Source of the DNA: Pseudolabrys sp.
GTDB lineage: Bacteria > Pseudomonadota > Alphaproteobacteria > Rhizobiales > Xanthobacteraceae
Assembly (NCBI GenBank): GCA_017849615.1
Contig: JAFIGS010000030.1
Span: 1-32,952 of the forward strand
Reading direction: 5' to 3'
Length of the DNA stretch: 32,952 bases
The notes beneath the pieces are model-generated. The model was not told the DNA's origin, made no database searches, and saw only the letters and a list, made by a program, of their open reading frames with translations. Positions 5,575-29,854 of this stretch are shown one piece after another. Positions within the stretch are counted from its first letter, which is position 1; each line of letters starts with the position of its first letter. A program made the translations under genes and the position numbers.

Positions 5575-5606
5575 ACTCTTGATCCCGTTCGCATTACTGG
5601 CATGAC

Positions 5607-7243: not shown

Positions 7244-7245
7244 CG

Positions 7246-7995: not shown

Positions 7996-8000
7996 TAGCG

Positions 8001-9062: not shown

Positions 9063-9112
9063 GTGTCATCCTCCCGCGTTGTGTTGCTTTGTTTTCTGAT
9101 CTCGAGAAAAGC

Positions 9113-9940: not shown

Positions 9941-9957
9941 GACTTGAACCGCCGCCC

Positions 9958-10953: not shown

Positions 10954-10985
10954 TTTCAACTCCGTTGTCGTCAGTATTCGAAGAC

Positions 10986-11759: not shown

Positions 11760-11766
11760 AAGCTCC

Positions 11767-12501
11767 TTACGCCTCGACAACGCGCGCCATCGGGCGAGCA
11801 AAGCCGCCATCGGCCCCGGCAATGGCGATCGCCGGAATCATGAACTCGACCCGCTGGCCGGCGAGCCCGGCCACATTGTTGATATGCTCGGCGATCAGTA
11901 CGCCCTGCCCGAGCAGCGTGACATGCGCCGGGAAGTCGTAGTCCTTGGTGCGGCGATGCGAGCTCAGGTCCGGCGTGCTGAAATCGACACCGACCATCTT
12001 GACCCCGTTATCGACCAGCCACTGCGCGGCTTCGCGCGAGATGCTGGCATGATCCTCATAGGCGTGGGTGTTCACCTTCTCGGCCCAGCCGGTATCGAAC
12101 ATGACAATGTCGCCGGGCCTGACCTTGGGCGTTGCGCGCTCGAGATCGGCAACCTCGATCACCGCCTCCGGCCCCTTGCGGATCTGCCACACGACGCCGC
12201 CGCCGTGGAGCCGCTCGATCGGGATCTGATCCATGGTCGGCCCATCAATGAAGAAGTGGCTCGGCGCGTCGACATGGGTGCCGTGGTGAACAACCATGTG
12301 AACGTCGGTCACATTGGCGTTGTCGCGCGGCATCTCCACGATCTTGCGGATGACCGGTGGCGGGAACGCCGGCGAGCGCGACAGATTCTCGGTGATGACA
12401 TGAGACAGGTCCACCCACTCGCCGAGCGGACGGCCGGGCTTGCTCGTTGGCAGATCGCGCCAACCCTTCCACGGACCTCGCTTCTCGCACACGTCGCACA
12501 T
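11767..12501 (-). CDS. Cyclase-family metal-dependent hydrolase (kynurenine formamidase/isatin hydrolase-like)
   Basis: A 244-residue member of the Cyclase family (PF04199), which includes kynurenine formamidase KynB, isatin hydrolase and putative polyketide cyclases. The signature metal-binding motif HHGTHVDAPSHF is intact, and WVDLSHVITENL begins the conserved domain. The enzymes hydrolyse amides or lactams using a divalent metal. The ATG at 12501 (giving an N-terminal MCDVC) has GGAAAG at proper spacing. An ATG at 12513 is in frame but lacks a ribosome-binding site. Similar Cys-containing N-termini occur in relatives I recall. Position between two SDR genes and upstream of a NicX-like protein suggests hydrolysis of an amide, lactone or ring-derived intermediate. 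Confidence 0.83.
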   Translation of the reverse strand: MCDVCEKRGPWKGWRDLPTSKPGRPLGEWVDLSHVITENLSRSPAFPPPVIRKIVEMPRDNANVTDVHMVVHHGTHVDAPSHFFIDGPTMDQIPIERLHGGGVVWQIRKGPEAVIEVADLERATPKVRPGDIVMFDTGWAEKVNTHAYEDHASISREAAQWLVDNGVKMVGVDFSTPDLSSHRRTKDYDFPAHVTLLGQGVLIAEHINNVAGLAGQRVEFMIPAIAIAGADGGFARPMARVVEA

Positions 12502-12541
12502 GTTGCTTTCCATCCATTGGCGTTGATCGGGCGGCCTAAGG

Positions 12542-13345
12542 TCAGGCCCGGCCGGTCGTGGTCATCGACAAACCTCCGTCAACGACCAGTTTGGTGCCGT
12601 TGACGTATCTGGCTTCGTCCGAGGCGAGGAACAGCACCGCATGCGCGATGTCCCATGGCTCGCCGAGCTTGCCCGAAGGCACGTTCTTCTCGCGCTTGCG
12701 GACCTCGTCCATCCAGTTGTCGCCGAGCTCCTGCTTGAAGCGCGCCGTCATCCGTTCCGAGGTGATGTAGCCGGGCACGACGGCGTTGCAGCGGATGCCC
12801 TGCGCGGCGTGCTGCAGGCCGACGCCGGTGGTCAACGACAGCACCGCGCCTTTCGAGGCCATGTAGCCGACAGCCGGATACGAATAGCGCAAAGCGCCGA
12901 CCGAAGCGTTGTTGACGATGGCGCCGCCGCCTTGCGCGATCATGTGCGGCAGCACGGCGCGGCAGGTGTAGAACATGCCCTTGACGTTGACGCGCATCAG
13001 CCGGTCGAAGTTCTCTTCGGACAGTTCGAGCGGGCCGCCGACGGCCTGAATGCCGACATTGTTGAACAGCACATCGACCCGGCCCCAGCGCGCGACGCAG
13101 GCCTTGACCATGGCCTCGACCGCGCCACCGTCGGCGATGTCGCATTCGTGAAGTGCAACCTCGCCGCCAATGGCCTCAATGCGCTGTTTCGTTTCGGCGA
13201 GATGATCGAGCCCCACATCGATGGCGAACACCTTGGCGCCCTCGCGCGCGAACACCAACGCCGTCGCCATGCCGATGCTCAGGCCGCCCTTCGAGCTGCC
13301 GGCGCCGACGACGATTGCAATTTTGCCTTTCAACCGATCTGCCAC
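12542..13345 (-). CDS. SDR-family oxidoreductase (classical)
   Basis: A 267-residue classical short-chain dehydrogenase. The cofactor-binding glycine motif is slightly extended (GAGSSKGGLSIG), then NNVG, catalytic Ser in NNASVGALRYSY, Tyr in VGYMASKGA and its Lys four residues on. A C-terminal DEARYVNGTKLVVDGGLSM completes the fold. Asp in FAIDVG after beta-2 suggests NAD preference. It is the first enzyme gene after the branched-chain-type transporter genes, separated from the binding-protein gene by 62 bp that contain a perfect hairpin. It probably oxidises a hydroxy intermediate; the substrate is unknown. Confidence 0.88.
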   Translation of the reverse strand: MADRLKGKIAIVVGAGSSKGGLSIGMATALVFAREGAKVFAIDVGLDHLAETKQRIEAIGGEVALHECDIADGGAVEAMVKACVARWGRVDVLFNNVGIQAVGGPLELSEENFDRLMRVNVKGMFYTCRAVLPHMIAQGGGAIVNNASVGALRYSYPAVGYMASKGAVLSLTTGVGLQHAAQGIRCNAVVPGYITSERMTARFKQELGDNWMDEVRKREKNVPSGKLGEPWDIAHAVLFLASDEARYVNGTKLVVDGGLSMTTTGRA

Positions 13346-13369
13346 GTTATTCCATCCTGTCAGGTAAGG

Positions 13370-13396
13370 CGCCGCCGGCGCGGATCGCCGGCGGCG
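13370..13396. promoter_or_regulatory. Perfect 11-bp GC hairpin after the binding-protein gene
   Basis: CGCCGCCGGCG (13370-13380), a 5-base loop, then the exact reverse complement CGCCGGCGGCG (13386-13396). In the direction of transcription it begins about 12 bases past the binding-protein stop codon. No T-run follows, so it is not a standard intrinsic terminator. It may be a stabilising or attenuating structure that leaves the binding-protein message more abundant than the downstream genes. Confidence 0.7.
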
Positions 13397-13407
13397 ATAT
13401 CATGTGT

Positions 13408-14616
13408 TCAGAGCTTCGGCTTGGCGGCCTGATACTGCTTGGGCCACACGGTGCGCAGCTGGCCGTCGATCCAGCCCACCATGATGGGCTGGATGAACTT
13501 GTTCTGGCCGTTCTCGGCGAAAGCGATTTTGCCGCCCGGCATCGGCACCGCGACTTCGAGCGAGGCCAGCGTTTCGCGTACCTTCTTCGGATCGTCGGTA
13601 CCGGCCTTCTCGAGCGCGGCGCGGATCACCATGCCCAGGGTGTAGCCGGTGCCGATGGTTTCCGAGGCCGGCGGGAACGGCGCCTTCGGCTCAAGCTCCT
13701 TGTAGCCGTCGAGTACCTGCTTCACGCCGTCGATCGGCAAGTCCCAGTTCCAGCAGACGATGCCCATCAGGTTTTCCGAGGCTTTGCCGAGCGTGGCGCC
13801 GATCGTGTCGGTGGAGACGCCGCCGCCGCCGGTGATCACGGGCACGGTGATGTTGACCGCGCGCAGCGCCCGGGTGACCAGGATCACGTCCGACGTGAAC
13901 GAGCTCAAGAAGATGACATCGGGCCTGTTCTGCAGCGAGGCCGACACGATCTGGGTCGGATCGGTCAAGCCCGACTGGAACGAGATTTGCGAGACGATCT
14001 CGAAGCCGTACTTGCCGGCAAGATCGAGCGTCGCCTTGAGCAACGACTGGCTCGCCGAGTCGGAGCCGACGAACACGGCAGCTCGCTTCGGCGCCTGCCC
14101 TTTCAGTTCCTTCATCAACTCGCCGATATAAGCCATCTGCAGTTCGGCGAGACTGCTGCCCTGCGGCGGCAGCTTGAAGGTGTATTTGAGACCGCGCTGC
14201 ACGATCGGATCGGCATAGGACGTGGTCAGCAGCGGGATTTCGGCGCGCTCGGCTTCGATCTGCACCGACAAGGTCATGGCGCTGGTGTTGGCGCCGACCA
14301 GAATGCGCGACTTGTTCTCGTTGATCAGGCGCTGCGTCACGCTGGCGGCCTGGGTCGGGTTGTCGCCGGTGTCGACCGGGAGCACCTTGAGCTTGGCGCC
14401 GCCCATCGACTTGATGCCGCCGTCCTTGTTGATCTGCTCGGCGGCGATCTGCAGGCCGGTCACCACGCGCCGCCCGGCTTCGCCGAAGCTGCCGGTCATC
14501 GCGTTCGGCGCGCCGATGATGATTTCGGCCGGCTGCTGCGCCGACACCGAACCCGCCGCGCCGGCAATGGTCACCGCCGCGACGAGCACTCCTAAACGTG
14601 TGACGAACTTGCTCAT
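13408..14616 (-). CDS. Branched-chain amino acid-type ABC transporter substrate-binding protein
   Basis: A 402-residue periplasmic binding protein of the LivK/Peripla_BP_6 family. A signal peptide covers about residues 1-26 (VAAVTIAGAAGSVSA then QQ). The type I fold then shows IIIGAPNAMTGSFGEAGRRVVTGLQIAAEQIN, DTGDNPTQAASVTQRLI, and LTTSYADPIVQRGLKYTFKLP. Relatives bind branched-chain amino acids, amides, urea, or aromatic acids in catabolic clusters. It has GGAGG about 10 bases before the ATG and lies 34 bp after livF. With livH, livM, livG and livF it forms a complete HAAT-type importer. Its place in a degradative operon argues for a carboxylic acid or ring substrate and not leucine, but this is inference. 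Confidence 0.9.
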   Translation of the reverse strand: MSKFVTRLGVLVAAVTIAGAAGSVSAQQPAEIIIGAPNAMTGSFGEAGRRVVTGLQIAAEQINKDGGIKSMGGAKLKVLPVDTGDNPTQAASVTQRLINENKSRILVGANTSAMTLSVQIEAERAEIPLLTTSYADPIVQRGLKYTFKLPPQGSSLAELQMAYIGELMKELKGQAPKRAAVFVGSDSASQSLLKATLDLAGKYGFEIVSQISFQSGLTDPTQIVSASLQNRPDVIFLSSFTSDVILVTRALRAVNITVPVITGGGGVSTDTIGATLGKASENLMGIVCWNWDLPIDGVKQVLDGYKELEPKAPFPPASETIGTGYTLGMVIRAALEKAGTDDPKKVRETLASLEVAVPMPGGKIAFAENGQNKFIQPIMVGWIDGQLRTVWPKQYQAAKPKL

Positions 14617-18117: not shown

Positions 18118-18930
18118 GGTTCTGTACTCATAAGAAGTTGAGGAGCGTGAGCGGTCGTGATTCAAGGTCTTGGGAGGACCTTGGACATGGCCCGCTACGG
18201 TCTTTCCGAAGCCGAGTGGCGGCTGATCGCGCCGCTGCTGCCGAGCAAACCGCGTGGTGTGGCGCGTGTTGACGATCGCCGCATCATCAATGCGATCTTT
18301 TATATCCTGCGGACCGGTTCTCCGTGGCGCGATCTACCGGAGCGCTACGGCCCCTATACGACGGCCTATAACCGCTACAATCGCTGGGCCAAGGCTGGCG
18401 TCTGGCTCCGGGTCTTCGAGACATTGGCAGAGCGTTCGCCGCAATCCCTTCATCTGATCGACAGTTCGATCGTCCGCGCGCACCAGCATGCAGCGGGCGG
18501 TAAAGAGGGGGCCCGGATCACGCCATCGGCCGTTCTCGTGGAGGACTGAGCACCAAGATCAATGCCGTCGTGGACGAGAACGGATTGCCGCTGCGGATCG
18601 TGCTCTCGGCTGGTCAGGCCTCCGATAAAGCCGCGGTTGCTGGATGGGCTGCCGCCGGCCCGCGCCCTGGTGGCCGATCGCGGCTATGACGCCAGAGCCA
18701 TCATCGAATTGGTGAGGGAGCACGGCCGCATAGCGCACATTCCGACCCAGCGCGACCGCAGGGTTCAACGCTCCGTCGATCCGGCGCTCTACCGCCAGCG
18801 CAATCTGATCGAACGCTTCTTCTGCAAGCTCAAGCACTTCCGGCGCGTCGCAACCCGCTTCGACAAGCCGGCACGAAACTTCCTCGCCGCCGTCCTGCTG
18901 GCCTCAACACGCCTCTGAAATCGCGGCGAA
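18118..18930 (+). mobile_element. IS5-family (IS427-type) insertion sequence remnant, ends approximate
   Basis: The transposase gene plus short flanks. The left edge probably lies near GGTTCTGTACTCATAAG, which starts around 18118. No matching inverted repeat is seen to the right of the transposase, so the right end is missing or too diverged to see. The element separates the promoter region of block A from the tail of block B. The boundaries are estimates. Confidence 0.6.
18187..18918 (+). pseudogene. IS5-family transposase, frameshifted
   Basis: The first frame starts at ATG 18187 (GGGAGG upstream) and encodes MARYGLSEAEWRLIAPLLP through the first catalytic Asp (HLIDSS), ending in a TGA at 18547-18549. 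A run of five G at 18507-18511 allows a -1 shift into GGPDHAIGRSRGGLSTKI, the normal continuation in this IS group, so that shift is probably the programmed one. A second disruption near 18636-18645 is not expected. There the reading frame changes again between DKAAV and LLDGLPPARAL, consistent with a small deletion. The remaining part keeps the second Asp (LVADRGYD) and the Glu (LIERFFCKLKHF). The protein cannot be made intact, so the copy is probably dead. Confidence 0.85.
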
Positions 18931-19114: not shown

Positions 19115-19570
19115 CTAATTCTCGTAGATCCCTACAACCCGGTTTTGCTCGACGATATTGTCCTTATAGCGCTCGAGGAATTGTTCGCGCGTCGGCGTAC
19201 CCTCGACGTTGGTGTCGAGCGCATAAACCCAGAAATAATAATGATGCGGGCCATGACCGGCCGGCGGTTGCGGACCGTAGTAGCTGAGCTGTCCGGCGCC
19301 GTTCGGTCCCACCCGAAACTTCTTCTGCGCATCGGTGAGGTCCGTCGTCTGCGGCGAAATGGCGTACAGCGTCCAATGCGTAAAACCCTGGGCGAGAGGT
19401 GCGTCCGGATCGTGGCAGATTACGGCCAATTCGATTGCCTCTTTCGGAGCACCGCTGATTTTGAGACGGGGAATGACGTTCCCCTTGTCTCCCGCGTGCT
19501 CGTCCTTCATCCGCCCGAGCGGCGCGAAGTCCAGACTTTCGATTTTCAAATCCTTGATGTTCAGCGGCAT
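19115..19570 (-). CDS. YbhB/YbcL (PEBP/Raf kinase inhibitor-like) family protein
   Basis: A 151-residue phosphatidylethanolamine-binding-protein homologue. The ligand-pocket motif CHDPDAP is followed by FTHWTLYAI, then SYYGPQPPAGHGPHHYYFWVYALD, which are the two conserved PEBP blocks. There is no signal peptide. The function of bacterial members is poorly known. It is the last gene of block B, 45 bp after the AA_synth gene and just before the IS5 remnant. Presence in a pyridine-degradation operon is unusual and could mean a small-molecule-binding role. It may also simply be the surviving neighbour at an IS-generated boundary. Confidence 0.88.
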   Translation of the reverse strand: MPLNIKDLKIESLDFAPLGRMKDEHAGDKGNVIPRLKISGAPKEAIELAVICHDPDAPLAQGFTHWTLYAISPQTTDLTDAQKKFRVGPNGAGQLSYYGPQPPAGHGPHHYYFWVYALDTNVEGTPTREQFLERYKDNIVEQNRVVGIYEN

Positions 19571-19615
19571 GCGACTGTCTCCCGACGCAAATGTTGAATG
19601 AGGTGTGCCTGTTGC

Positions 19616-20197
19616 CTAGGCCAGATCGCTCAGCGACTTGCCGCCGACACGCTGGTGGACGCGTCCGCCGGACGCGACGCCGACGCAGATCATCAGTTCG
19701 TCCGGCCGCGGACCGTCCGGAACGGCGATGGTGATCGCATCGTAGTGCGACCGGATGTAAAGTTCGTCTTTGTGGGCGAGCGGAATATCGATCGAGGTGC
19801 CTGCCGCCGCCGTCTTGGACGCCGACGAGATCCAGGCCAGACCGCCGCCGACCGCTTCGCGCAGCGCATCGCCAAACACCGTGGTGACGCAGGCCACGAC
19901 ATGTTCCTGCTCGCCCGCCGTACCGGCGATGCCGCCCTTGCCGTAGCTGTGAACCGGTCGGCCGCCGAGCAGTCCCCGCGCGCGCTGCCCGAGCACGGTG
20001 CCCAGCAACGCGCTCGACGCGGTCAGCGGCGACAAATCCGCTACGTACTGACCGGCGAACGGATTGCGCAGAATCACCGCGACGGCGGCCTTGACCAACG
20101 CTTCGCCGGGCTTGCCGCCGTCATGCTCGATCTCCTGCACGAAACTGTGTAGGGCGCGAACGTCGTAGGTAGCCTGCAACTCCTTCTCAACGCTCAT
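19616..20197 (-). CDS. Amino acid synthesis (AA_synth, DUF1185, PF06684) family protein
   Basis: A 193-residue protein of the AA_synth/DUF1185 family, a family without an established reaction as far as I know. Recognisable parts are the VILRNPFAGQYVADLSPL segment, the glycine-rich GGRPVHSYGKGGIAGTAGEQEHVVACVTTVFGDALREAVGGG region, and PDELMICVGVASGGRVHQRVGG near the end. The ATG at 20197 gives the usual family length. An extension to 20275 adds 26 residues of unlike composition and is rejected. It follows the MHPCO gene with a 114-bp gap. Relatives are often found beside amidohydrolases and other degradation genes, so a role on a ring-cleavage intermediate is plausible but unproven. Confidence 0.8.
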   Translation of the reverse strand: MSVEKELQATYDVRALHSFVQEIEHDGGKPGEALVKAAVAVILRNPFAGQYVADLSPLTASSALLGTVLGQRARGLLGGRPVHSYGKGGIAGTAGEQEHVVACVTTVFGDALREAVGGGLAWISSASKTAAAGTSIDIPLAHKDELYIRSHYDAITIAVPDGPRPDELMICVGVASGGRVHQRVGGKSLSDLA

Positions 20198-20311
20198 CTG
20201 ACTTTCACTCTCCAGGGTGCGATCTGTCGCGGCCGAAACCGCGATCTGACCGTCTGGCGCATGCCGCGCCGTCAATGATGGACTTCAGGGGTGACGCGGC
20301 TCAGCGCGGCC

Positions 20312-21445
20312 TCACCACGAATAGACGCGGCGCGTGGGATCGTAGCGCGCCGATTCGAGCGCCGCGGCCGTGAACTGGTTGCCTTTCGACAATGACCGAT
20401 TGGCGGCGTAGTCGCCCGAGATCGCCTGACACCGATCGGTGATCGGGCGAACGCGCTTTTCCCAGGACCGCAGCGCTTCCTCGATATCGGGGACTTCCTC
20501 AAGCTCGATGGCGAGGCTGAAGGCGTTAACCATGCCACAGCCGGCGCCTTGCGCCAGCGCAGGACACATGGCGTGCGCGGCATCGCCGACGAGAGCGACC
20601 TTGCCGCGAGACCATTCGTTAAGCTTCGTCGTCTCGTAGCGGTCGTAGCGTGCGCTGGGAAGCTTGGCGGCCTCGGCGAGCACCGGCTCCAAGAAGGGAA
20701 ACATTGCGACCCAGGTGTCGTAGTGAATTGGAACGCGCGAGCCATCCGGATCGTTGGCGGGCGCCATGAGGCCAAGATAGAGCTCGCTCTCGTTGCACGG
20801 CGAGTAGAGGATGCGGAGCACGCGCGGCCAAAAATTCCACATGTCAATGGTGTTGTCCCACTCGCCATGACCAAGCTCCTTCTTCTTGCGCGGAACGAGA
20901 AGACGGATCAGCCCGTCGGTCGAGATCCAGCGATCCTGCTCGAAGCCGATCGAATCGCGGACCTTCGAGCCGACGCCGTCGGCGCCGACAACGAGATCTG
21001 CCTCGAACATCTCGCCGGACACCAGCTTCACCTTGCCGGACGGATCGGCCCAGATCACTTCGGAATTGGTGCGAATGTCGACGCCCGCCTCGCGCGCGCG
21101 CTTCTCTAGCGCCTTATGCAGATGCGCGCGCGTCATGATGCGCCAGGGCAGCCCGTTGAAGGTCTCACGCGACACGGTGACGTTGTGCAATCGCGTTTCG
21201 TAAGTCGGCGGCGTATGCGAACCGTTCAGCACATCCTCGAGCGCATTGATGCCTTCGAGAACGCGTAGCCCGTTGTGCCATAGGTAGATTCCCGCACCGA
21301 TGGCACGCAGCTCAGGCCCCTTCTCATGCAGGCGCACGCTCCAGCCCCGTTGCGCCAGCGCAGTCGCCGCGGTCAGTCCGGCAAAACCACCGCCGGCAAT
21401 TTCGGCATGCAGGGTTTTGCCGCCCCGCTTGTTCACATTCGCCAT
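20312..21445 (-). CDS. 3-hydroxy-2-methylpyridine-5-carboxylate monooxygenase (MHPCO)
   Basis: A 377-residue FAD-dependent class A monooxygenase. It matches MHPCO of the vitamin B6 degradation pathway, which uses NADH and O2 to hydroxylate and open the pyridine ring of MHPC, giving 2-(acetamidomethylene)succinate. The FAD motif GGGFAG is at 18-23, the DG motif GADGVGS near 154, and the GD motif GDAAHAMCPALAQGAG at 287-302. The residues I recall as substrate-contacting in the crystal structure, Tyr82, Arg211, Tyr223 and Tyr270, are all present at exactly those numbers. The N-terminus (MANVNK) and C-terminus (RRVYSW) also look like the known enzyme. It follows the transporter's binding-protein gene, separated by 62 bp with a hairpin. 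This is the most confident functional call in the window. Confidence 0.93.
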   Translation of the reverse strand: MANVNKRGGKTLHAEIAGGGFAGLTAATALAQRGWSVRLHEKGPELRAIGAGIYLWHNGLRVLEGINALEDVLNGSHTPPTYETRLHNVTVSRETFNGLPWRIMTRAHLHKALEKRAREAGVDIRTNSEVIWADPSGKVKLVSGEMFEADLVVGADGVGSKVRDSIGFEQDRWISTDGLIRLLVPRKKKELGHGEWDNTIDMWNFWPRVLRILYSPCNESELYLGLMAPANDPDGSRVPIHYDTWVAMFPFLEPVLAEAAKLPSARYDRYETTKLNEWSRGKVALVGDAAHAMCPALAQGAGCGMVNAFSLAIELEEVPDIEEALRSWEKRVRPITDRCQAISGDYAANRSLSKGNQFTAAALESARYDPTRRVYSW

Positions 21446-21474
21446 GTCAGATCACCGTGTGTTGAGAACGAAGC

Positions 21475-21499
21475 GGTGCCCGGCGTCGCCGGGCACCGG
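21475..21499. promoter_or_regulatory. Perfect 11-bp GC hairpin after the binding-protein gene
   Basis: CGGTGCCCGGC (21475-21485), a 3-base loop, then the exact reverse complement GCCGGGCACCG (21489-21499). In the transcribed direction it starts 9 bases past the binding-protein stop codon and precedes the MHPCO gene. No T-run follows, so partial termination or message stabilisation is more likely than full termination. It parallels the hairpin at 13370-13396 without sharing its sequence. Confidence 0.7.
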
Positions 21500-21507
21500 C
21501 GTGCCAT

Positions 21508-22461
21508 CTATTTGTCCTGCCAGACCAGGCTATTGAGGTCGGCGGTCGCGTTGACGATGCCTTCCTTCTTGGCCGAATCGACCCAGTACTGCATGGCCGA
21601 GGCCGGCTGGTTCTTCTCCCAGCGGCCGAGGCCCATCTTTTCGATGACAGCCGGAGGCACCTTGGTGTTCGCGGCGATCGTGGCCCGCACGATCTTGGGG
21701 TCCTTGAAATCGTCGATCGCCTTGTTGATGGCGCGCAGGAAGCCGCGCACAACCTCTTTGTGCTGATCGACGTACGGCTGCATCGCGATGATGCCGCTGA
21801 ATACGATCGGCGACTTCACATCGGTGAAGTAATGGCCGAGCACCGTGGCGCCCTGCTCCTTGCCGAGCGTAATGAAAGGCTCGCTCACGCCCGCCGCGGC
21901 GATGGTCTTGTTGCGCAGCGCCGCCAGCATGTCGGGGAACGGCACCTCACGGAACGTCACGTCCTTCGGATCGACGCCGTTCTTGCGCAGCCAAGCGCGC
22001 ATCATCGTCCAGTCGGTGTTGTAGCTGAGATTGGTCGCCACGGCTTTGCCCTTCAGATCGGCCGGCGACTTGATCGCCGGATCCACCGCCAGCACGGCAT
22101 GGACCGGATCATCGGACGCCTGGGCAAAGTTGAACGACACGTAGGTGACCGGAATGCCGGCGTTGCGCGCGTTGAGGACGCCGAGCGCATCGGAAATGCC
22201 GAATTGCAGCGAGCCCGACTGCAGCGCCGGAATGATCTGGCCGCCGCCGGCCATCGGCAACAACTCGACCTCGATTTTCTCGTTCTTGAAATAGCCGGCG
22301 TCGCGGGCTCGCCAGAAATACGAATAGACGCCGATCGGAATATAGCCGACCTTGATCTTGGTGACGCCATCCTGGGCCTGAACCGGCTGCGCCGACACCA
22401 GGCTCGAGAGCCCCAGTGCGGCAACGAAGGCCAGCGCTCCTGTCGTGATCCGGAAGCTCAT
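21508..22461 (-). CDS. NitT/TauT-type ABC transporter substrate-binding protein (block B)
   Basis: A 317-residue periplasmic binding protein of the SsuA/NMT1 family. The signal peptide is about residues 1-28 (ALAFVAALGLSSLVSA then QPVQAQ). The mature protein begins KIKVGYIPIGVYSYFWRARDAGYF and carries LPMAGGGQIIPALQSGSLQFGISDALG and LKGKAVATNLSYNTDWTMMRAWLRKNG. The start is the ATG at 22461 with GAGGTGA seven bases upstream; the longer frame is the shadow of the ATPase gene. Located between the transporter ATPase and MHPCO, it is a good candidate for binding a pyridine carboxylate such as MHPC or a B6 relative. That specificity is inferred from context only. Confidence 0.87.
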   Translation of the reverse strand: MSFRITTGALAFVAALGLSSLVSAQPVQAQDGVTKIKVGYIPIGVYSYFWRARDAGYFKNEKIEVELLPMAGGGQIIPALQSGSLQFGISDALGVLNARNAGIPVTYVSFNFAQASDDPVHAVLAVDPAIKSPADLKGKAVATNLSYNTDWTMMRAWLRKNGVDPKDVTFREVPFPDMLAALRNKTIAAAGVSEPFITLGKEQGATVLGHYFTDVKSPIVFSGIIAMQPYVDQHKEVVRGFLRAINKAIDDFKDPKIVRATIAANTKVPPAVIEKMGLGRWEKNQPASAMQYWVDSAKKEGIVNATADLNSLVWQDK

Positions 22462-22465
22462 TATC

Positions 22466-23272
22466 TCACCTCTCTGTTTGGGTTTCTCGCGGCAACTTTT
22501 GGGCCTGCTGGCGCACCAGGGTGTAGACATGGTGGCGCAGGCGTAAGAACTCCGGCGTTTCCTTGGTGACGAGCTGATCGCGCGGATGCGGCAGATCGAT
22601 CGCGATCTCTTCCACGACGCGCGCCGGACGCGTCGAAAGGACGACGACTTTGTCGGCCATGAAGACAGCCTCATCGATGTCATGCGTGACCAAAAGCGTG
22701 GACAGTTGCATGCTGCGGCAGATGCCCATCACCATGTCCTGAAGATCGATGCGCGTCTGCGCGTCGACCGACGCGAAAGGCTCGTCGAGCAGCAGTAGTT
22801 TGGGTTTGACGACGATCGAGCGCGCCAGCGCGCAGCGCTGCTGCATGCCGCCCGACAACTGCCACGGATAGAGGTCGGCGGCGTGCTCTAGATTGACGGC
22901 GCTCAAGGCCGCCATGATCTGCGGATCGCGGGCACTCACGCCACGCAGCCCGAAGGCGACATTCTGGCGCACCGAGAGCCACGGAAAGAGGCTGCGATTG
23001 TAGTCTTGAAACACCACCGAAAGCCACGACGGCGGGTCGTCGAAATGCTGGCCGCGATGCAGGACTTCGCCCTCATCGGGCTGCATCAAAGCGGCAATGC
23101 AGCGCAGCAGCGTTGTCTTGCCGCAGCCGGACGGACCGACCACCGCGACGAACTGGCCCGGCTTCTGGTGAAATGTCATGCCGTTGAGGATGCGCGGACC
23201 GCCAGTCGTGAACGACTTACTGAGGTTCTGAACGGCGAGGATTGGCTTTGTTACGGCAGTGCTGTCAGCCAC
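22466..23272 (-). CDS. NitT/TauT-type ABC transporter ATP-binding protein (block B)
   Basis: A 268-residue ABC ATPase. Walker A is GPSGCGKT, the Q-loop is SVVFQDYNRSLFPWLSV, the signature is LSGGMQQRCALARSI, Walker B is LLLLDEPFASVDAQ, and the H-loop is LLVTHDIDEAVFMADKV. It belongs to the SsuB/TauB subfamily. It overlaps the permease gene upstream by 8 bp and ends 4 bp before the binding-protein start. It energises the two block B permeases. Confidence 0.91.
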   Translation of the reverse strand: MADSTAVTKPILAVQNLSKSFTTGGPRILNGMTFHQKPGQFVAVVGPSGCGKTTLLRCIAALMQPDEGEVLHRGQHFDDPPSWLSVVFQDYNRSLFPWLSVRQNVAFGLRGVSARDPQIMAALSAVNLEHAADLYPWQLSGGMQQRCALARSIVVKPKLLLLDEPFASVDAQTRIDLQDMVMGICRSMQLSTLLVTHDIDEAVFMADKVVVLSTRPARVVEEIAIDLPHPRDQLVTKETPEFLRLRHHVYTLVRQQAQKLPRETQTER

Positions 23273-24056
23273 GATTTGCCTCCATTAGGCCGCGCCAGCC
23301 GCGATGCCAGGCGAGTACACGCTTTTCGACAGCCAGCAACGTCAGGGTCAGGATCAGGCCGATCGTGCCGATCATGAGGACGCCGGCGTAGACATTTGCG
23401 GTCTGGAACAGACGCTGGTTGCGCAAGATGTAGAAGCCGAGTCCATCGTCGGCTGCGATGAGCTCTGAAATGACCATCATGACCAGCGCGATGCTCAGTG
23501 CGACGCGCACGCCGGAGAAGACCGATGGCAGCGCTGCCGGCAGCACGACGCGCCAGAGCCGCTCGATGGTCGAGAGGCCGCTGACGCGTGCGACGTCGAT
23601 CAAGGTAGGATCGACGCGGCGTGCCCCGTCAGTCGCCGCCAGCAGCACGGGGAAGACCGAGCCGAAGGCAATGACGAAGATTCGCATCTGGTCGGTCGGA
23701 CCGAGTAACAGCAGCGCCGCCGGCAAGATCGCGACCGCGGGAATGAAGCGCAGATATTCCAGCGTTGGCCGTACCCAGGGATCGAGCCCGCGCAGCGAGC
23801 CCATGGCGATGCCGACGACCGAGCCGACGACGACCGCGACGACGAAGCCAGCGAGCAGACGGTAGAGACTGGGCAGCAGCGCGCTGAACAGGAGTTCGCC
23901 GTGGCAAAGACGGATGTAACCGTCGGCGACGCGCTGGATCGGAGGCAGATAGACCGCCGGGTGGAAGATCGCGGCCCAATGCCAGATCGCCACGAGGGCG
24001 ACAATCGTGCCTGCCTGCCACGCCAGCGGCGTTATAGTAAGGGATCTAGCGGTCAC
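23265..24056 (-). CDS. NitT/TauT-type ABC transporter permease (block B, second)
   Basis: A 263-residue inner-membrane permease with a GTG start at 24056 that overlaps the preceding permease gene by 11 bp. Hydrophobic helices begin near residue 12. The coupling loop is LIDVARVSGLSTIERLWRVVLPAALPSVFSGVRVALSIALVMMVISEL, with the conserved ALPS.FSG.R core. It overlaps the ATPase by 8 bp. As in block A, two different permease genes accompany one ATPase, pointing to a heterodimeric membrane domain. Confidence 0.86.
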   Translation of the reverse strand: MTARSLTITPLAWQAGTIVALVAIWHWAAIFHPAVYLPPIQRVADGYIRLCHGELLFSALLPSLYRLLAGFVVAVVVGSVVGIAMGSLRGLDPWVRPTLEYLRFIPAVAILPAALLLLGPTDQMRIFVIAFGSVFPVLLAATDGARRVDPTLIDVARVSGLSTIERLWRVVLPAALPSVFSGVRVALSIALVMMVISELIAADDGLGFYILRNQRLFQTANVYAGVLMIGTIGLILTLTLLAVEKRVLAWHRGWRGLMEANRG

Positions 24057-24906
24057 GATATTCGGGACCCCACGGCATCAGCGCGCGCTCGATCGCCATG
24101 AACACGGCGTTGACGAGATATCCGAGCACGCCGGTGACGAAGATCGCGGCCCACATCTCCGTGACCAGGCCATTGAGGCGGACATTCTCGATGTAGGAGC
24201 CTATGCCGCCCTGGCCCGTCAGCATTTCGACGGTGATGGCGACGACGAGCGCGATCGCCGATGCCGTGCGCAGGCCGGTGGCGAACGCGGGCAATGCGGC
24301 CGGCAGGACGATTCGCAGGATGCGCGCGCCGGGTCTCAGATGCAGCACGCGGCCGGTTTCCATGAAACGCGGATCTACGCCCTCGACGCCCGTCTTGGTC
24401 GAGAACAGGACAGGCCAGATACTGGCGAAGGCGATCATGAACAGTTGCATCTGCAGCCCGACGCCGAGCACGAGTAACGCGACCGGGATGAGCGCTACCG
24501 ATGGGATCGGCCGCAGGAATTCGAGCAGCGGGCGGATCGCGATTTCGAGGCGAGGCAGCAGAGCGAGCGCAACGCCGCCCGCCGCGCCGGCGACGGCCGC
24601 CAGCAGCAGGCCCGGTGCCCAGGAGCCGACCGTCATGGCCACTGCGCTGGCGAGCTCGCCGCCCCGGAGGCCGTCGGCGACCGCGCGGACGATCGCGAAA
24701 GTCGATGGCAGGTCACGGGGATCGACCAGGCCAAGGCCCCGCACCGTCTCCCACATGGCGACGACGACCGCGGCGCCGGCCGCCCCCTTGGCCGAGTTGA
24801 CGGCGCGGGTCATCACCACGAACTGGATCGAACGTCCAGTCCCGGGCCAGCGCCTTGCCGCATCCGGCTTCAAAGGATCCAAAGTCGCCAGCCCCGGGCT
24901 TTGCAT
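24046..24906 (-). CDS. NitT/TauT-type ABC transporter permease (block B, first)
   Basis: A permease of about 286 residues from the ATG at 24906. An in-frame GTG at 24921 is equally possible, and neither has a clear ribosome-binding site. An N-terminal cytoplasmic stretch of about 30 residues precedes the first helix. The coupling loop is RVLHLRPGARILRIVLPAALPAFATGLRTASAIALVVAITVEML. The segment DLPSTFAIVRAVADGL is the periplasmic region typical of the SsuC family. It lies 27 bp after the hydrolase gene and overlaps the second permease by 11 bp. Confidence 0.84.
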   Translation of the reverse strand: MQSPGLATLDPLKPDAARRWPGTGRSIQFVVMTRAVNSAKGAAGAAVVVAMWETVRGLGLVDPRDLPSTFAIVRAVADGLRGGELASAVAMTVGSWAPGLLLAAVAGAAGGVALALLPRLEIAIRPLLEFLRPIPSVALIPVALLVLGVGLQMQLFMIAFASIWPVLFSTKTGVEGVDPRFMETGRVLHLRPGARILRIVLPAALPAFATGLRTASAIALVVAITVEMLTGQGGIGSYIENVRLNGLVTEMWAAIFVTGVLGYLVNAVFMAIERALMPWGPEYRDR

Positions 24907-24933
24907 GACACGTCGCACCACGCGCGAGTGAGA

Positions 24934-25761
24934 CTAATGACGGGAGACGAAATCGCGGATCGCCGCCGTGATGACGTCGGGCGCCTCCTCGTTGACATAA
25001 TGGTCGGTGTTGTCGACGACGAGGACGGGCAGATCCGGACGTAGCGCGCGTGTCTTCTCGAGGGCGGCCGACGACACTAGCTTGCTCAGCGCGCCGCGCA
25101 CCACCAGTACCGGACACTTGATCTTCTCGAACGCCCCAACCAAATCAGCGCGCAAGCCCTCCGCGGTCTGCGACATCGCATCCGGCGAAGCGAGCGGACG
25201 AAGTCCGCCGTCTACTTTGGCGTAGGCCGATTCGGCACGGCGACGTATCGTCTCCCGGGGCATCAGCGGATAGCGGCTCTGCAAATAGGCTTCAACGTCG
25301 CCCTGGGACCGGAAGAGACGGTCACCGCCATTCACGCGAGACGCAAGCTGATCGAACACCTCGGTCTCGATGTAAGGCGTGAAATCGATTGCCACGACGC
25401 CACGAACAAGTTCGGGGGCCAGCACCGCGGCTTCGACTGCATTACGCGCGCCAAGAGAGTGGCCAACAATGAATGCTGGCCCGGCATTCAACGTTTTGAT
25501 CAGCGCGATGATGTCGGCCGCATATTCATGGGCCGCATAGCCGCTACTTGGCTTGTCGCTGAGGCCGTGGCCGCGCTGATCGACGGCGACGCCACGCACG
25601 GTCTCCTTGAGGGCGACCAACTGCGGCGCCCAGACCGCGGAATTCGAAGTGATCCCGTGCAGATAAATGACCACCGGACCACTACCCGCCTCGCGGATAC
25701 TCAGGGCAATCCGGCCGGTTTCGATGCGGCGCGACGGCACTAGATCGAGCTTGATTTCCAC
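24934..25761 (-). CDS. 2-(Acetamidomethylene)succinate hydrolase-like alpha/beta hydrolase
   Basis: A 275-residue alpha/beta hydrolase strongly resembling the E-2-(acetamidomethylene)succinate hydrolase of Mesorhizobium B6 catabolism. That enzyme hydrolyses the MHPCO product to succinic semialdehyde, acetate, ammonia and CO2. LHGITSNSAVW forms the oxyanion region, VDQRGHGLSDKP follows, and the elbow is GHSLG with Ser102. The acid appears to be Asp126 in VAIDFTPYIETE, after beta-6, and the base His254 in TDHYVNE. I recall Ser106, Asp130 and His258 for the known enzyme, a constant offset of four. It starts at GTG 25761 behind GAGAGGGAAA. It is the first gene of block B, divergent from the GntR gene, and its pairing with MHPCO supports the assignment. 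Confidence 0.88.
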   Translation of the reverse strand: MEIKLDLVPSRRIETGRIALSIREAGSGPVVIYLHGITSNSAVWAPQLVALKETVRGVAVDQRGHGLSDKPSSGYAAHEYAADIIALIKTLNAGPAFIVGHSLGARNAVEAAVLAPELVRGVVAIDFTPYIETEVFDQLASRVNGGDRLFRSQGDVEAYLQSRYPLMPRETIRRRAESAYAKVDGGLRPLASPDAMSQTAEGLRADLVGAFEKIKCPVLVVRGALSKLVSSAALEKTRALRPDLPVLVVDNTDHYVNEEAPDVITAAIRDFVSRH

Positions 25762-25885
25762 GCCTGGTTTCCCTCTCGGCCTTCCCGATCAACGAACGAC
25801 CCGTGTCGCGAGTTTGATTGGCGAGCTATGACGGCCTGCCGCACGAGGAAGCCAACCACAAAGCCGCGCCGGCCGTCAACTGGAT

Positions 25886-25915
25886 TGTCAGACATTCTTG
25901 ACAATTTGTCTGACA
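25886..25915. promoter_or_regulatory. Two TGTCnGACA boxes, predicted GntR operator
   Basis: TGTCAGACA (25886-25894) and TGTCTGACA (25907-25915) are each a 4+1+4 palindrome and are reverse complements of each other. Their centres are 21 bp apart, two helical turns, so two dimers could bind the same DNA face. TTGTC...GACAA-type boxes are characteristic of FCD-type GntR regulators. The pair lies in the 383-bp divergent region between the hydrolase (start 25761) and the GntR gene (start 26145), so it could control both directions. No further gene is seen in that region. TTGACA-like hexamers at 25898 and 25925 lack convincing -10 partners. Confidence 0.65.
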
Positions 25916-26144
25916 CTCTGGCAATTGACACCGGCCTGGTGTATGGATGTCCCGCTGAAGAATGCTCTGCCTCTCGATTGCGCAAGGGGCGATGAAAACA
26001 ACGCCGGCCCAGCTGGAAAGACAGGCACTTACTGATTGTTGCCACTTCGGAGCGGGGTACTATTTGGCGAATCGATTCCGCTCACAGCTCAGACTTGCCA
26101 GGACGTCAGCCGCGGTCTCCGACCGCGACGATCAGAGATCAAGC

Positions 26145-26813
26145 ATGATTGCAAAGATGGATTTGCGAATAAACCGGAAGACTGTGCCGCAGGAGGTCGT
26201 CGAGAAACTTCGACACGCTATCCTTTCGGGGATTTACATGCCCGGCAGCCGGCTGGTGGAGACCGATCTGTGCAACTCCCTCGGCGTCAGCCGGCCTTCG
26301 CTACGCGAGGCGTTACGCAGTCTGCAGGCCGAGCGACTGATCGAAATCGTGCCCAATCGCGGGCCGCAGGTGCCGCTTCTGTCTTGGCGCGATGCGGAAG
26401 AAATCTATGAAGTGCGCGAGTTACTCGAAGGCGAAGCCGCCGCGCGCTGCGCCGTTACGATCCAGGAGGAGGATCTCAAGGCCCTTGGCGAGAGCCTTGA
26501 GGCATTCCGTCGCGCCGTTGTCAGCAGCAACTCAGCCAACGAACTCGTCACCACGACGTCCGACTTCTTCGCCATCATTCTGCGAAACTGCGGCAACAAG
26601 ATTATTGAAGAAACCCTTACCGGACTCAAGGCGCGCGTCAATTTTTTGCGTTCCCGATCTATGTCTTTGCCGGGACGCGCGAACAAAAGCTTCATTGAGA
26701 TGAAGGCGATCTACGCGGCCATTAAGATAGGCAACGCAAAACAGGCGCGCAAGGCGGCGCAGGAGCACGTCGCGAAAGCGCGCGATGCAGCAAAAAGCGC
26801 CTTTCTGCGATGA
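26145..26813 (+). CDS. GntR family (FCD-type) transcriptional regulator
   Basis: About 222 residues. The N-terminal winged helix-turn-helix includes EVVEKLRHAILSGIYMPGSRLVETDLCNSLGVSRPSLREALRSLQAERLIEIVPNRGPQV, the classic GntR signature. It is followed by an all-helical FCD domain (DAEEIYEVRELLEGEAAARCAV onward), which in relatives binds carboxylates, sometimes through a metal. One of the expected metal-ligand histidines is not obvious in the last third. The ATG at 26145 gives the normal family length; a second at 26157 is possible, and the in-frame extension back to 25962 lies in the promoter region. It is transcribed away from the pyridine cluster and probably represses it via the TGTCnGACA boxes. 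The inducer could be a pathway intermediate. Confidence 0.87.
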   Translation: MIAKMDLRINRKTVPQEVVEKLRHAILSGIYMPGSRLVETDLCNSLGVSRPSLREALRSLQAERLIEIVPNRGPQVPLLSWRDAEEIYEVRELLEGEAAARCAVTIQEEDLKALGESLEAFRRAVVSSNSANELVTTTSDFFAIILRNCGNKIIEETLTGLKARVNFLRSRSMSLPGRANKSFIEMKAIYAAIKIGNAKQARKAAQEHVAKARDAAKSAFLR

Positions 26814-26924
26814 TCGTATCTCGGTTACGCACATTCGCCTGAGGGCCCAGAATGCTCTCCGGGTATTTCCAGATACTTAAGCGGATAATTTGCGATTTGA
26901 CGTACCGGCGCGTGACATCGCCGA

Positions 26925-27246
26925 AATGGCTTCAACTTCGTGCGCCGGGCAAGCCTGATGCGTTGGTGCATCACTCAGACCGCGGCAGCCAATACACCAG
27001 CAGCGAGCAGTTCCAACGGTTGATGGCCGATCACGGTGTCGTCTGTTCGATGAGCCGCTCGGGCAATGTCTGGGACAATGCCGCAATGGAGAGCTTCTTC
27101 TCATCGCTCAAGACGGAGCGCACGGGGCACAAGATGTACAGGAGCAGGGACGAGGCCAAGGCCGACGTGTTCGACTACATCGAATGCTTCTACAACCCGA
27201 AACGTCGGCACTCGACGATCGGCTATATGGGCCCTATGGAGTTCGC
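26925..27246 (+). mobile_element. IS3-family transposase (OrfB) fragment
   Basis: The last third of an IS3-family OrfB (rve) transposase: KPDALVHHSDRGSQYTS with the second catalytic Asp, then SMSRSGNVWDNAAMESFFSSLKTER with the Glu, and the C-terminal FDYIECFYNPKRRHSTIGYMGPMEF. The upstream two thirds, including the first Asp and all of OrfA, are missing. Sequence left of about 26925 (back to 26814) shows no IS homology I recognise. The frame stops at a TAG that seems to come from the adjoining monooxygenase gene, so the IS 3' end is also lost. The element is dead and marks a recombination junction. Confidence 0.85.
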
Positions 27247-28196
27247 CTAGCTGGGTCGATTCGAAGCCCGACCGTCCCTATACGCCGGAAGAGCATCGGC
27301 GCTTCAAGGCCCTGCCCCTCATCGCGCGCTATATCCGGTGGAAACTCTTCTGGAACGGCGAGCGCAACTCCACCCGCTATCAAAAAGACACCAAAGGCAG
27401 CGCCGCGTTTCGGGCGCGCTGCTTTGCGGCGATCGACCGCTACATAACCGATCCGCAAAAGCGGGAAGCACTGCGTCCAAAGTACGCGGTGGGCTGCAAG
27501 CGACTGCTCAAATCGAACGATTGGTATCCGGCACTCGCGCGCGACAATGTCTCGATCGTCACCTCGAAGATCGAGAGATTGACGGAAGATGGCGCCGTCA
27601 CTGCGGATGGCAAGCATCATCGCCTGGATGCGATCATCTTCGCGACAGGCTTTCAGGCCACCCGCTTTCTCACTCCAATGAAGATTGTCGGCCTCGGAGG
27701 CGCAGTGCTCGCCGACCGCTGGCGCGACGGCGCCCAGGCCTACCGTGGCGTCGCCGTTCCTGGCTTCCCGAATTTTTTCATGATGTACGGGCCGAACACG
27801 AACACGCATAATTCGATCGTAGGCATGCTGGAAGGCCAGTCGGAATATATCGCCAAGCGCGCAAAACGGGTGGTCAAGAACGGAACCTACGAGCACGTCA
27901 AGGAAGCACCATTCCGCAAATACTCCGACATGGTTCAGTCCAAGGTCGGCAAGTATGCTTGGTCCGACGATTGCGGGAACTGGTACAAGGAAATCGGCGG
28001 CATCGTTACCAACAATTGGCCGGACTATGCCCACCGCTATCGCCTGATGATGCTGCTGAACGATAACGGCAACTATAATATTAACACTCCGACCGAAGCC
28101 CCAGGAACTATAGCCGCGGCAAACATAAAGGCCGCGCACCACACCGCCGCGCAGCCGGCGCCCGCTATGGCGCCCGGCCTCAGGGAGGCGCGCTAG
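27246..28196 (+). pseudogene. 5'-truncated Baeyer-Villiger monooxygenase (HAPMO-like)
   Basis: About 315 C-terminal residues of a type I BVMO. The open stretch begins PSWVDSKPDRPYTPEE, the place where intact relatives read QRTP-S-W. It continues through the HRLDAIIFATGFQATRF motif and FPNFFMMYGPNTNTHNS to a normal end at the TAG 28194-28196. The N-terminal FAD-binding GxGxxG, the BVMO fingerprint and the NADPH-binding motif are gone, replaced by the IS3 fragment. No start codon or ribosome-binding site precedes it. It resembles the 4-hydroxyacetophenone monooxygenase branch and is not a duplicate of the intact BVMO that follows. Its stop overlaps the GTG start of the next gene by one base, so the pair was once an operon. 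Confidence 0.85.
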
Positions 28197-29854
28197 TGCC
28201 GCGCGACATTCAAGCGAGGACCGACGCGGCCGGCGACGCAGGACGCGTCGATGCAGTTATCGTTGGCGCCGGATTTGCCGGCCTTTTCGCCATCCATCGC
28301 ATGCGTCAGCTTGGCCTGACATTGCGCTGCATCGAAGCCGGCGACGGCGTCGGCGGCACATGGTTCTGGAATCGATATCCCGGCGCGCGTTGCGATGTCG
28401 AAAGCCTCGATTACTCCTACTCGTTCTCGAACGAGCTTCAGCAGGAGTGGAAATGGTCGAGTCGCTTTGCCGACCAGTCTGAAATCCTAGCTTACCTTAA
28501 TCACGTCGCCGATCGATTCGACCTGCGCCGGGATATCCAGTTCGAAACCCGCGTCACGGCGATGCGCTTCGACGAGAAGCGCGACGTCTGGATCGTTTCG
28601 ACCGATAAAGGCGACGAAATTGAGGCCCGTTTCTGCCTGATGGCGAGCGGCAACCTGTCGGTGCCGCGCGTCCCCGATTTCGCTGGCATCGAACGTTTCA
28701 AGGGCAAGTGGTATCACTCGGCGCAGTGGCCGAAGGAAGGCGTGGACTTCACGGGCAAGCGCGTTGCCCTGATCGGCACCGGTTCCTCCGGCGTGCAGAT
28801 GCTGCCCAAGCTTGCGGCGCTAGCGAGCCACGTCACCGTATTCCAGCGGACGGCTAATTTCAGCGTTCCGGCCCGAAACGCCCCTATTCCGGACGACGAC
28901 GAGCGCAATCACAAGGCGCGTTACCCGGAGCTACGCAAGGCGGGGCTCAAGCAATCTTCCGGCATGTCGCGTATTCCGATTCCGACCATGGCCGCGCAAG
29001 ACATGCCGGCCGAGGAGCGGACAAAGTTCTATGAGGAGCTTTGGGCCAAAGGCGGCAGCGCGCGAATCATGACCGCCTTCAACAATCTTTTGCGGAACGA
29101 AGAAGCCAACGAGACATTGGCCTCCTTCGTTCGCAACAAGATCCGCTCGATCGTCAAGGATCCGGAGACGGCCGAACTGCTCACACCGCGCGGTCACCCG
29201 ATCGGGGCCAAGCGGCTTTGCGTCGATATGGACTATTTCGAGAGCTTCAATCGGGACAACGTGAAGCTGGTCGACGCCCGCCGCGCGCCGATCCAGGAGA
29301 TCACGGAAACGGGCATCAGGACGACCGAAGCCGAATACGAATTCGACGCGATCGTCTTTGCCACCGGCTTCGACGCCATGACCGGCGCACTCAATGAAAT
29401 CACGATCACCGGCCGGGACGGACGCCGGCTCAAGGACAAATGGGTCAACGGGCCGACGACCTATCTCGGCTTGATGGTCGCTGGCTTCCCGAACATGTTC
29501 ATCGTCGCCGGCGCCGGCAGCCCGTCGGTGAAATCGAACATGGTCACCGCGATCGAACTGCACATCGAGTGGATCGCCAATTGCCTGACCTATGCCGCAA
29601 GCCACGGGGCTTTGACGATCGAAGCGCAGCAGGACGCGGAAGACGAATGGGTGCAGCACGTCAATGAAGTGGCGAACGGCACACTCTTTCCAAAGGCGGA
29701 TAGCTGGTACATGGGCGCCAACATCCCCGGCAAACCGCGGGTCTTCATGCCCTATATCGGCGGCATTCCGGCCTACATCAAAGCCTGCGAGCAAGTCGTG
29801 GCCGACAATTATCGCGGCTTCGATTTCCGCAAGCTGAGCGCGTCCGGGAGCTAG
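28196..29854 (+). CDS. Baeyer-Villiger monooxygenase (flavin-dependent, type I)
   Basis: A 552-residue FAD/NADPH monooxygenase that inserts oxygen next to a ketone to give an ester or lactone. The FAD motif is GAGFAG (24-29), and the GTWFWNRYPGARCDVESLDYSYSF segment is typical of cyclohexanone/phenylacetone monooxygenases. The BVMO fingerprint FKGKWYHSAQWP is intact. The NADPH motif GTGSSG follows in VALIGTGSSGVQMLPKLA, and IVFATGFDAMTG is conserved. The start is the GTG at 28196, preceded by GGGAGG at seven bases. It is followed after 7 bp by an esterase, then an SDR: the enzymes needed to turn an alcohol into a ketone, then an ester or lactone, then an acid. The native ketone is unknown. 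Confidence 0.92.
   Translation: MPRDIQARTDAAGDAGRVDAVIVGAGFAGLFAIHRMRQLGLTLRCIEAGDGVGGTWFWNRYPGARCDVESLDYSYSFSNELQQEWKWSSRFADQSEILAYLNHVADRFDLRRDIQFETRVTAMRFDEKRDVWIVSTDKGDEIEARFCLMASGNLSVPRVPDFAGIERFKGKWYHSAQWPKEGVDFTGKRVALIGTGSSGVQMLPKLAALASHVTVFQRTANFSVPARNAPIPDDDERNHKARYPELRKAGLKQSSGMSRIPIPTMAAQDMPAEERTKFYEELWAKGGSARIMTAFNNLLRNEEANETLASFVRNKIRSIVKDPETAELLTPRGHPIGAKRLCVDMDYFESFNRDNVKLVDARRAPIQEITETGIRTTEAEYEFDAIVFATGFDAMTGALNEITITGRDGRRLKDKWVNGPTTYLGLMVAGFPNMFIVAGAGSPSVKSNMVTAIELHIEWIANCLTYAASHGALTIEAQQDAEDEWVQHVNEVANGTLFPKADSWYMGANIPGKPRVFMPYIGGIPAYIKACEQVVADNYRGFDFRKLSASGS

Follow-up and report, generated by a model that had tools for sequence, protein, structure and literature searches.

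Lower vitamin B6-pathway genes with an interposed NitT/TauT-type importer in an operon-like module of Pseudolabrys sp.

Background

In the bacterial degradation of vitamin B6, the pyridine ring is cleaved by 2-methyl-3-hydroxypyridine-5-carboxylate (MHPC) oxygenase (MHPCO), which uses O2 and NAD(P)H and yields 2-(acetamidomethylene)succinate; 2-(acetamidomethylene)succinate hydrolase (AAMSH) then converts this to succinic semialdehyde, acetate, ammonia and CO2. The known route as a whole runs from pyridoxine via 4-pyridoxate to succinic semialdehyde (PMC6253932). Here we describe a module on contig JAFIGS010000030.1 of Pseudolabrys sp. (assembly GCA_017849615.1, host genome listed as 99.99% complete), in which a four-gene ABC importer stands between the genes for these two enzymes; the whole stretch of 32,952 nt that was analysed is referred to below as the window. 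The module is probably a self-contained operon by which MHPC, or a hydroxypyridine carboxylate very close to it, is taken up and its ring cleaved, and it suggests that the organism lives on a half-digested vitamin B6 product made elsewhere, not on the vitamin itself.

The nearest point of comparison is the vitamin B6 cluster of Mesorhizobium loti. The genes for a GntR-family regulator, AAMSH, MHPCO, a PF06684 protein and a PEBP protein are orthologous between the two, with the same order and orientation and the same operator motif; clusters of the M. loti type also carry the PF06684 ‘AA_synth’ and PEBP pair that lies downstream in the present operon. The Pseudolabrys locus differs in being without pyridoxine 4-oxidase, HMPDdc, 4-pyridoxate dehydrogenase (4PADH) and FHMPC dehydrogenase, and in having the importer between AAMSH and MHPCO, an arrangement absent from 56 of 57 HMPDdc-bearing loci. 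With NitT/TauT-type ABC importers this transporter shares its domain content (an NMT1-type binding protein, two PF00528 permeases and one ATPase), but it scores below the cut-off of the listed nitrate, taurine and sulfonate models. It is also different from the NitT-type transporter that follows FHMPC dehydrogenase in clusters of the M. loti type, the binding proteins being 23–24% identical (two loci with a listed match).

An earlier reading of this DNA, made without database searches (the sequence-only reading), had proposed an undescribed system. This stands in part: the enzymes were already known, while no description of a lower-only, importer-linked vitamin B6 operon or of an MHPC importer was found in the open full-text literature among the matches listed, which is weak evidence of novelty.

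Module layout

Nine frames, all of them open, lie between positions 19115 and 26813 of the window, comprising a divergent GntR/FCD gene on the plus strand and eight genes on the minus strand, given here in the order in which they are read.

25962..26813, plus strand: GntR-family regulator with FCD domain (Pfam GntR and FCD), divergent from the operon
25884..25915, no strand: putative operator between the divergent genes, with ATTGTCAGACA at 25884 and TGTCTGACA at 25907
24934..25761, minus strand: AAMSH (PDB 3kxp match, 335 bits)
24046..24921, minus strand: ABC permease 1, NitT/TauT type (PF00528)
23265..24056, minus strand: ABC permease 2, overlapping permease 1 (PF00528)
22466..23272, minus strand: ABC ATPase, overlapping permease 2 (PF00005)
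21508..22461, minus strand: periplasmic binding protein, NMT1/THI5-like (PF09084)
20312..21445, minus strand: MHPCO (PDB 3alj and 3gmb match, 684 bits)
19616..20197, minus strand: PF06684 ‘AA_synth’ (DUF1185) protein (PF06684, 197 bits; PDB 2qtp, 3byq; synteny)
19115..19570, minus strand: PEBP (YbhB/YbcL-like) protein (PF01161, TIGR00481; synteny)

The eight minus-strand genes (25761 down to 19115) look like a single operon; the importer genes overlap one another or are separated by gaps of a few bases. A complete NitT/TauT importer with two permeases had been claimed for the interval between AAMSH and MHPCO, and the domain searches agree, recovering the binding protein (PF09084), the ATPase (PF00005) and both permeases (PF00528). 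The start of the PF06684 gene was set by eye at the ATG matching the start of its homologue in a related locus (L009, see below), and the true start of the regulator is probably internal, at about 26145 or 26157 (read by eye), instead of 25962.

Identity and active sites of MHPCO and AAMSH

The alignment of the MHPCO protein with the M. loti MHPCO chains in the PDB spans 377 residues and has no gap (684 bits, with the next PDB family at 75 bits). Six residues that we take to be the substrate residues that matter in this enzyme (Y54, Y82, R181, R211, Y223 and Y270) are all present in the window protein; across 65 MHPCO rows Y54 was conserved in 62, and each of the other five in all 65. The first gene of the operon matched PDB entry 3kxp, labelled alpha-(N-acetylaminomethylene)succinic acid hydrolase, at 335 bits (next match 68 bits). 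It keeps the nucleophile S106 together with H258, R146, R167, Y168, R179, Y259 and the oxyanion positions I41 and L107, all of them residues named in PMC3538738. Both assignments of the sequence-only reading, MHPCO with its substrate residues at the right numbers and AAMSH as the first gene, are thereby borne out, and the genes that it named lie where its coordinates put them.

The acetyl-methyl cavity of AAMSH, as delimited in the same source (I41, L107, F131, I135, L140, L143, L207 and L232), is likewise kept in the window protein except for F in place of L at position 140, a residue common to 29 of the 56 full-pathway rows. Across the whole lower-only set, the substrate-binding residues and hydrophobic acetyl-methyl pocket reported there are retained. 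Conservation of this methyl cavity favours the 2-methyl compound MHPC over 5-hydroxynicotinate.

MHPCO matches at E ≤ 1e-60 were present in 32 of 296 genomes of the host’s family; identity reached at least 80% in four of these (own genome included) and was 39–50% in the other 28. The latter were not counted as MHPCO because KnmB1, a hydroxylase of karnamicin biosynthesis, stands at 45% identity to MHPCO (according to PMC9838390). With just four family genomes at 80% or above, the module is sporadic. On the same distribution we rejected the possibility that the window protein is merely one of many group A monooxygenases.

Search for upper-pathway enzymes

Query enzymes were taken from an M. loti genome (locus L033 and the following stretch, L098). 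PDB matches confirmed the queries for pyridoxine 4-oxidase (4ha6), 4-pyridoxolactonase (3aj3), pyridoxal 4-dehydrogenase (PLDH; 3ndr, with 3nug and 3rwb) and FHMPC dehydrogenase (4om8); those for HMPDdc and 4PADH were assigned by position and are presumptive. The yardstick for orthology was the full-pathway loci, where the oxidase, HMPDdc, 4PADH and FHMPC dehydrogenase stood at 67–100% identity, and the genome of L041, where the lactonase stood at 96%.

Within the window, thresholds of 35% identity and 40% coverage returned no match to PNO, HMPDdc, 4PADH or FHMPCDH, in keeping with the earlier statement that upper steps are missing there; for PLDH and PPAT the sole match at 35% or above was an SDR with 37% identity to PLDH. 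In the rest of the genome, where the sequence-only reading had advised looking for upper genes, no orthologue was found for the five enzymes searched, 4PADH being ambiguous. The sole HMPDdc match was 24% identical over 105 residues (query positions 78–182), the best matches to pyridoxine 4-oxidase reached 38–41% over parts of the protein, the best to FHMPC dehydrogenase 36%, and the best to 4-pyridoxolactonase 28–32% over parts, its matches as a whole spanning 26–32%. For 4PADH the best match was an ambiguous relative, a 53% identical GMC oxidoreductase at G000:C35:200082–201788 (L101). As no upper vitamin B6 orthologues were found in the genome, the substrate of the operon would have to arrive preformed.

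Occurrence in other genomes

One scan of named genomes yielded 65 loci. HMPDdc lay near MHPCO in 57 of them and was missing from L009, L010, L011, L050, L066, L069, L070 and L073; the contig of L069 measures 4.5 kb, and L073 is a contig end from the genome of L068 with only 104 MHPCO residues (L068, whose contig starts inside MHPCO, was counted as importer-less via L073). The importer was found between AAMSH and MHPCO in five of the 65 loci. In four of these, L009, L010, L050 and L066, upper genes are absent; the fifth, L041 (Mesorhizobium sp. 1M-11), combines the importer with upper genes and a second NitT-type transporter. MHPCO identity between the window and the four other importer-bearing lower-only genomes was 80–86%, and the module, recurring as it does in these genomes, is not just a local accident. 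L050 lies in G164, a 98% complete genome of the host’s genus, and L066 in G114 (100% complete), both assignments following from matches at identical positions; the genome of L010 is apparently G173, for which a completeness of 86% is listed. At L066 (4099–11691, Tardiphaga P9-11) no close PF06684 orthologue stands between MHPCO and PEBP, and a 41–42% homologue is located beyond the GntR gene instead.

When the whole genomes that carry L009, L010, L050, L066 and L011 were searched, neither HMPDdc (at most 48%) nor 4PADH (at most 56%) was matched at orthologue level. The same type of search gave at most 41% for the oxidase (one 68-residue piece at 50%), 43% for FHMPC dehydrogenase (short pieces at 50–53%) and 34% for the lactonase (one 90-residue piece at 38%).

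L011 of Bradyrhizobium sp. dw_411 (5451–14155) is a second lower-only architecture, in which AAMSH and MHPCO stand side by side. Its genome resembles that of Pseudolabrys in having no upper-pathway orthologue (best 4PADH-like match 56%, best HMPDdc-like match 44%), but the locus differs in carrying another NMT1-type set of binding protein, ATPase and permease, along with a further ABC transporter upstream, and in having no GntR, PF06684 or PEBP homologue listed nearby. In two actinobacterial loci, L070 (7154–14900) and L069 (242–4273), an MHPCO of 62–63% identity adjoins a transporter related (53–59%) to the second one in the M. loti cluster. In L070 there are in addition an FHMPC-dehydrogenase-like gene (50%) and genes for AAMSH, PF06684 and PEBP proteins, with no HMPDdc match at 35% or above.

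Regulator and operator

A GntR homologue of 48–75% identity adjoined AAMSH in 61 of the 65 loci. Among the 63 loci with an AAMSH match, TGTCNGACAAT (on either strand) occurred within 330 bp upstream of AAMSH in 49, while the remaining 1,258,530 bp of these loci contained none; this count overstates the independent support, the motif having been picked after reading 11 of these regions and many loci being close relatives. L009, L010 and L050 carry the variant TTGTCTGTCAAT. That regulator and operator motif are common to the full cluster argues for a shared inducer, which is likely to be a lower-pathway compound.

ATTGTCNGACA occurred three times in the Pseudolabrys genome. The two sites besides the operon fall inside listed open frames with no evident pathway link, one of them surrounded by a run of genes that we take to be NADH dehydrogenase genes, and their use as markers of hidden upper genes was rejected for that reason. 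A concealed upper pathway under the same regulator, which the sequence-only reading had named as a finding that would refute its proposal, is thus not indicated, neither site lying beside pathway genes.

Enzyme and importer phylogeny

Enzyme trees comprised 64 loci for MHPCO (L073 left out) and 62 for AAMSH. Full-pathway loci made up one side of a branch with 100% support in both trees (57 rows for MHPCO, 56 for AAMSH), and on the opposite side were the six lower-only sequences (window, L009, L010, L050, L066 and L011) and the actinobacterial ones. Holding the lower-only sequences together improved the MHPCO tree slightly (by 0.18 log units, p-AU 0.52) and the AAMSH tree by 11.6 log units (p-AU 0.71), and in each case both a clade and a grade fit. 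Some end branches are long (for example, 4.31 for L070 in the AAMSH tree), and in a further tree of 64 loci, the window and six distant outgroups, long branches met.

Over the six importer-bearing loci, importer divergence correlated with enzyme divergence (r = 0.86, with 2 of 720 permutations as high); the coefficient was 0.83 when AAMSH was taken by itself and 0.50 for MHPCO by itself. Among the six copies, L041 has the most divergent binding protein and ATPase, and for the permeases and AAMSH, L066 is equally or more divergent. A recent transfer of the importer into L041 was rejected on these grounds. The pattern fits an importer that was part of the operon before the split between full and lower-only loci and was lost from most full clusters; early transfer may be an alternative history.

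Importer and its ligand

The best NCBIfam models for the ATPase were those of nitrate, SaoA and taurine ATPases, all below cut-off. A search with the binding protein at E ≤ 1e-50 among 397 genomes drawn from the order, a draw that may omit other known carriers, recovered only the host genome. In a plasmid collection, matches were distant (MHPCO at 41–44% in two records, the binding protein at 30% in one), and an AlphaFold model of the binding protein made from six sequences had a mean pLDDT of 42.9, too poor for use.

Proposed function and its alternatives

In the scheme that we propose, the periplasmic binding protein would capture the compound, which the ATPase and the two permeases would then bring into the cell. 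There, by close orthology with the characterised enzymes, MHPCO would open the ring with O2 and NAD(P)H to form 2-(acetamidomethylene)succinate, from which AAMSH would release succinic semialdehyde, acetate, ammonia and CO2. The divergent GntR/FCD protein is predicted to respond to a pathway compound and to control the operon by way of the TGTCnGACAat sites. The preformed substrate would most simply be supplied by neighbours that degrade B6, or else stem from some other source of hydroxypyridine acids. As regards the scavenging of MHPC put forward in the sequence-only reading, the enzyme identities, the completeness of the importer and the lack of an upper orthologue for the five enzymes searched (ambiguous for 4PADH) all stand; MHPC uptake and cross-feeding are, for their part, inferred.

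Several observations weigh against this scheme. The ligand assigned to the binding protein, MHPC or a close hydroxypyridine carboxylate, is deduced from genomic context, and the protein falls below the cut-off of all seven NCBIfam models listed. In L041 the importer stands beside a complete upper pathway and is therefore not exclusive to scavengers. The genomes of L050, L066 and L011 hold HMPDdc-like genes of 41–48% and 4PADH-like genes of 47–56% identity, and of the four other lower-only genomes with the importer, those of L009, L010 (86% complete) and L050 (98% complete) are, by title, metagenome-assembled. Two further points, one concerning the substrate range of MHPCO and one the Pseudolabrys genome, are each the starting point of an alternative explanation.

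MHPCO is reported to act on 5-hydroxynicotinate too (PMC6180312), and the true substrate might be this compound, or some other 3-hydroxypyridine-5-carboxylate with no relation to vitamin B6; the operon would then be a general unit for the catabolism of hydroxypyridine acids. The window, with no match to the upper B6 enzymes and with a distant NicX-like gene suggestive of other pyridine chemistry, would agree with this. We nevertheless regard it as unlikely: 5-hydroxynicotinate should give a methyl-less formamido product, whereas the methyl-cavity residues of AAMSH (as delimited in PMC3538738) are those of the full-pathway enzymes, and both regulator and operator motif are held in common with B6 clusters.

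A little less likely still is a complete pathway with non-homologous upper enzymes elsewhere in the genome, starting for example from imported 4-pyridoxate. The 53% GMC gene at C35 adjoins genes for an aldehyde dehydrogenase and an NMT1-type binding protein and could hint at an unrecognised upper route, and the own-genome search did not cover PLDH or PPAT. However, this GMC gene does not travel with the operon. Its 95% orthologue lies in the congener G077, whose genome is 99% complete and without an MHPCO match at E ≤ 1e-60, and the congener that does carry MHPCO, G164, offers no more than a 55% match; as a supplier of the missing 4-pyridoxate step it was rejected on that distribution. The single HMPDdc match, low and partial, and the operator motif, found at just two other places and beside such genes at neither, also speak against this explanation.

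A functionless remnant, left behind after loss of the upper genes and stranded among insertion-sequence fragments, is highly improbable, for although transposase fragments flank the module on both sides and an MHPCO of at least 80% identity is confined to four of the 296 family genomes, the nine frames are open, the active sites are conserved and the same architecture is present in four diverged lower-only genomes.

If a self-contained operon for MHPC uptake and cleavage is the correct reading, it would supply a first ligand for a group of orphan NMT1-type importers. Degradation of vitamin B6 would then be a community trait that cells can divide among themselves at MHPC, the importer and the regulator being named; it would become clear why some MHPCO genes occur on their own, and MHPC would be worth measuring in soil and water. 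Beyond this, we tentatively raise a broader possibility, which we hold to be somewhat less than an even chance: that MHPC is a public intermediate of B6 breakdown served by a guild of dedicated consumers from several alphaproteobacterial lineages, whose binding protein would be, as far as searched, the first importer to be recognised for any hydroxypyridine carboxylate of the pathway, and that the lower half with its importer is of old standing, either distinct from the full cluster or its ancestor, with Mesorhizobium sp. 1M-11 (importer plus full pathway) surviving as a link.

Neighbouring genes

Fragments of IS4/5-type and integrase-core transposases lie on both flanks of the module (18157–18549 and 26852–27250). 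The stretch 27066–29854 contains a frame without a Pfam match, by eye resembling the C-terminal part of a flavin monooxygenase, which overlaps a transposase fragment and is followed by a flavin monooxygenase-like gene at 28196–29854. On the minus strand at 5607–13345, a second NitT/TauT-looking set (5607–9062, read by eye), whose binding protein matches SsuA-family models below cut-off, is accompanied by an alpha/beta hydrolase, a PF04199 cyclase, two SDRs and the NicX-like protein, for which the sole PDB sequence match was 2,5-dihydroxypyridine 5,6-dioxygenase (7cn3, E = 2.3e-8); this is possibly a second ring-cleavage cluster of the same contig.

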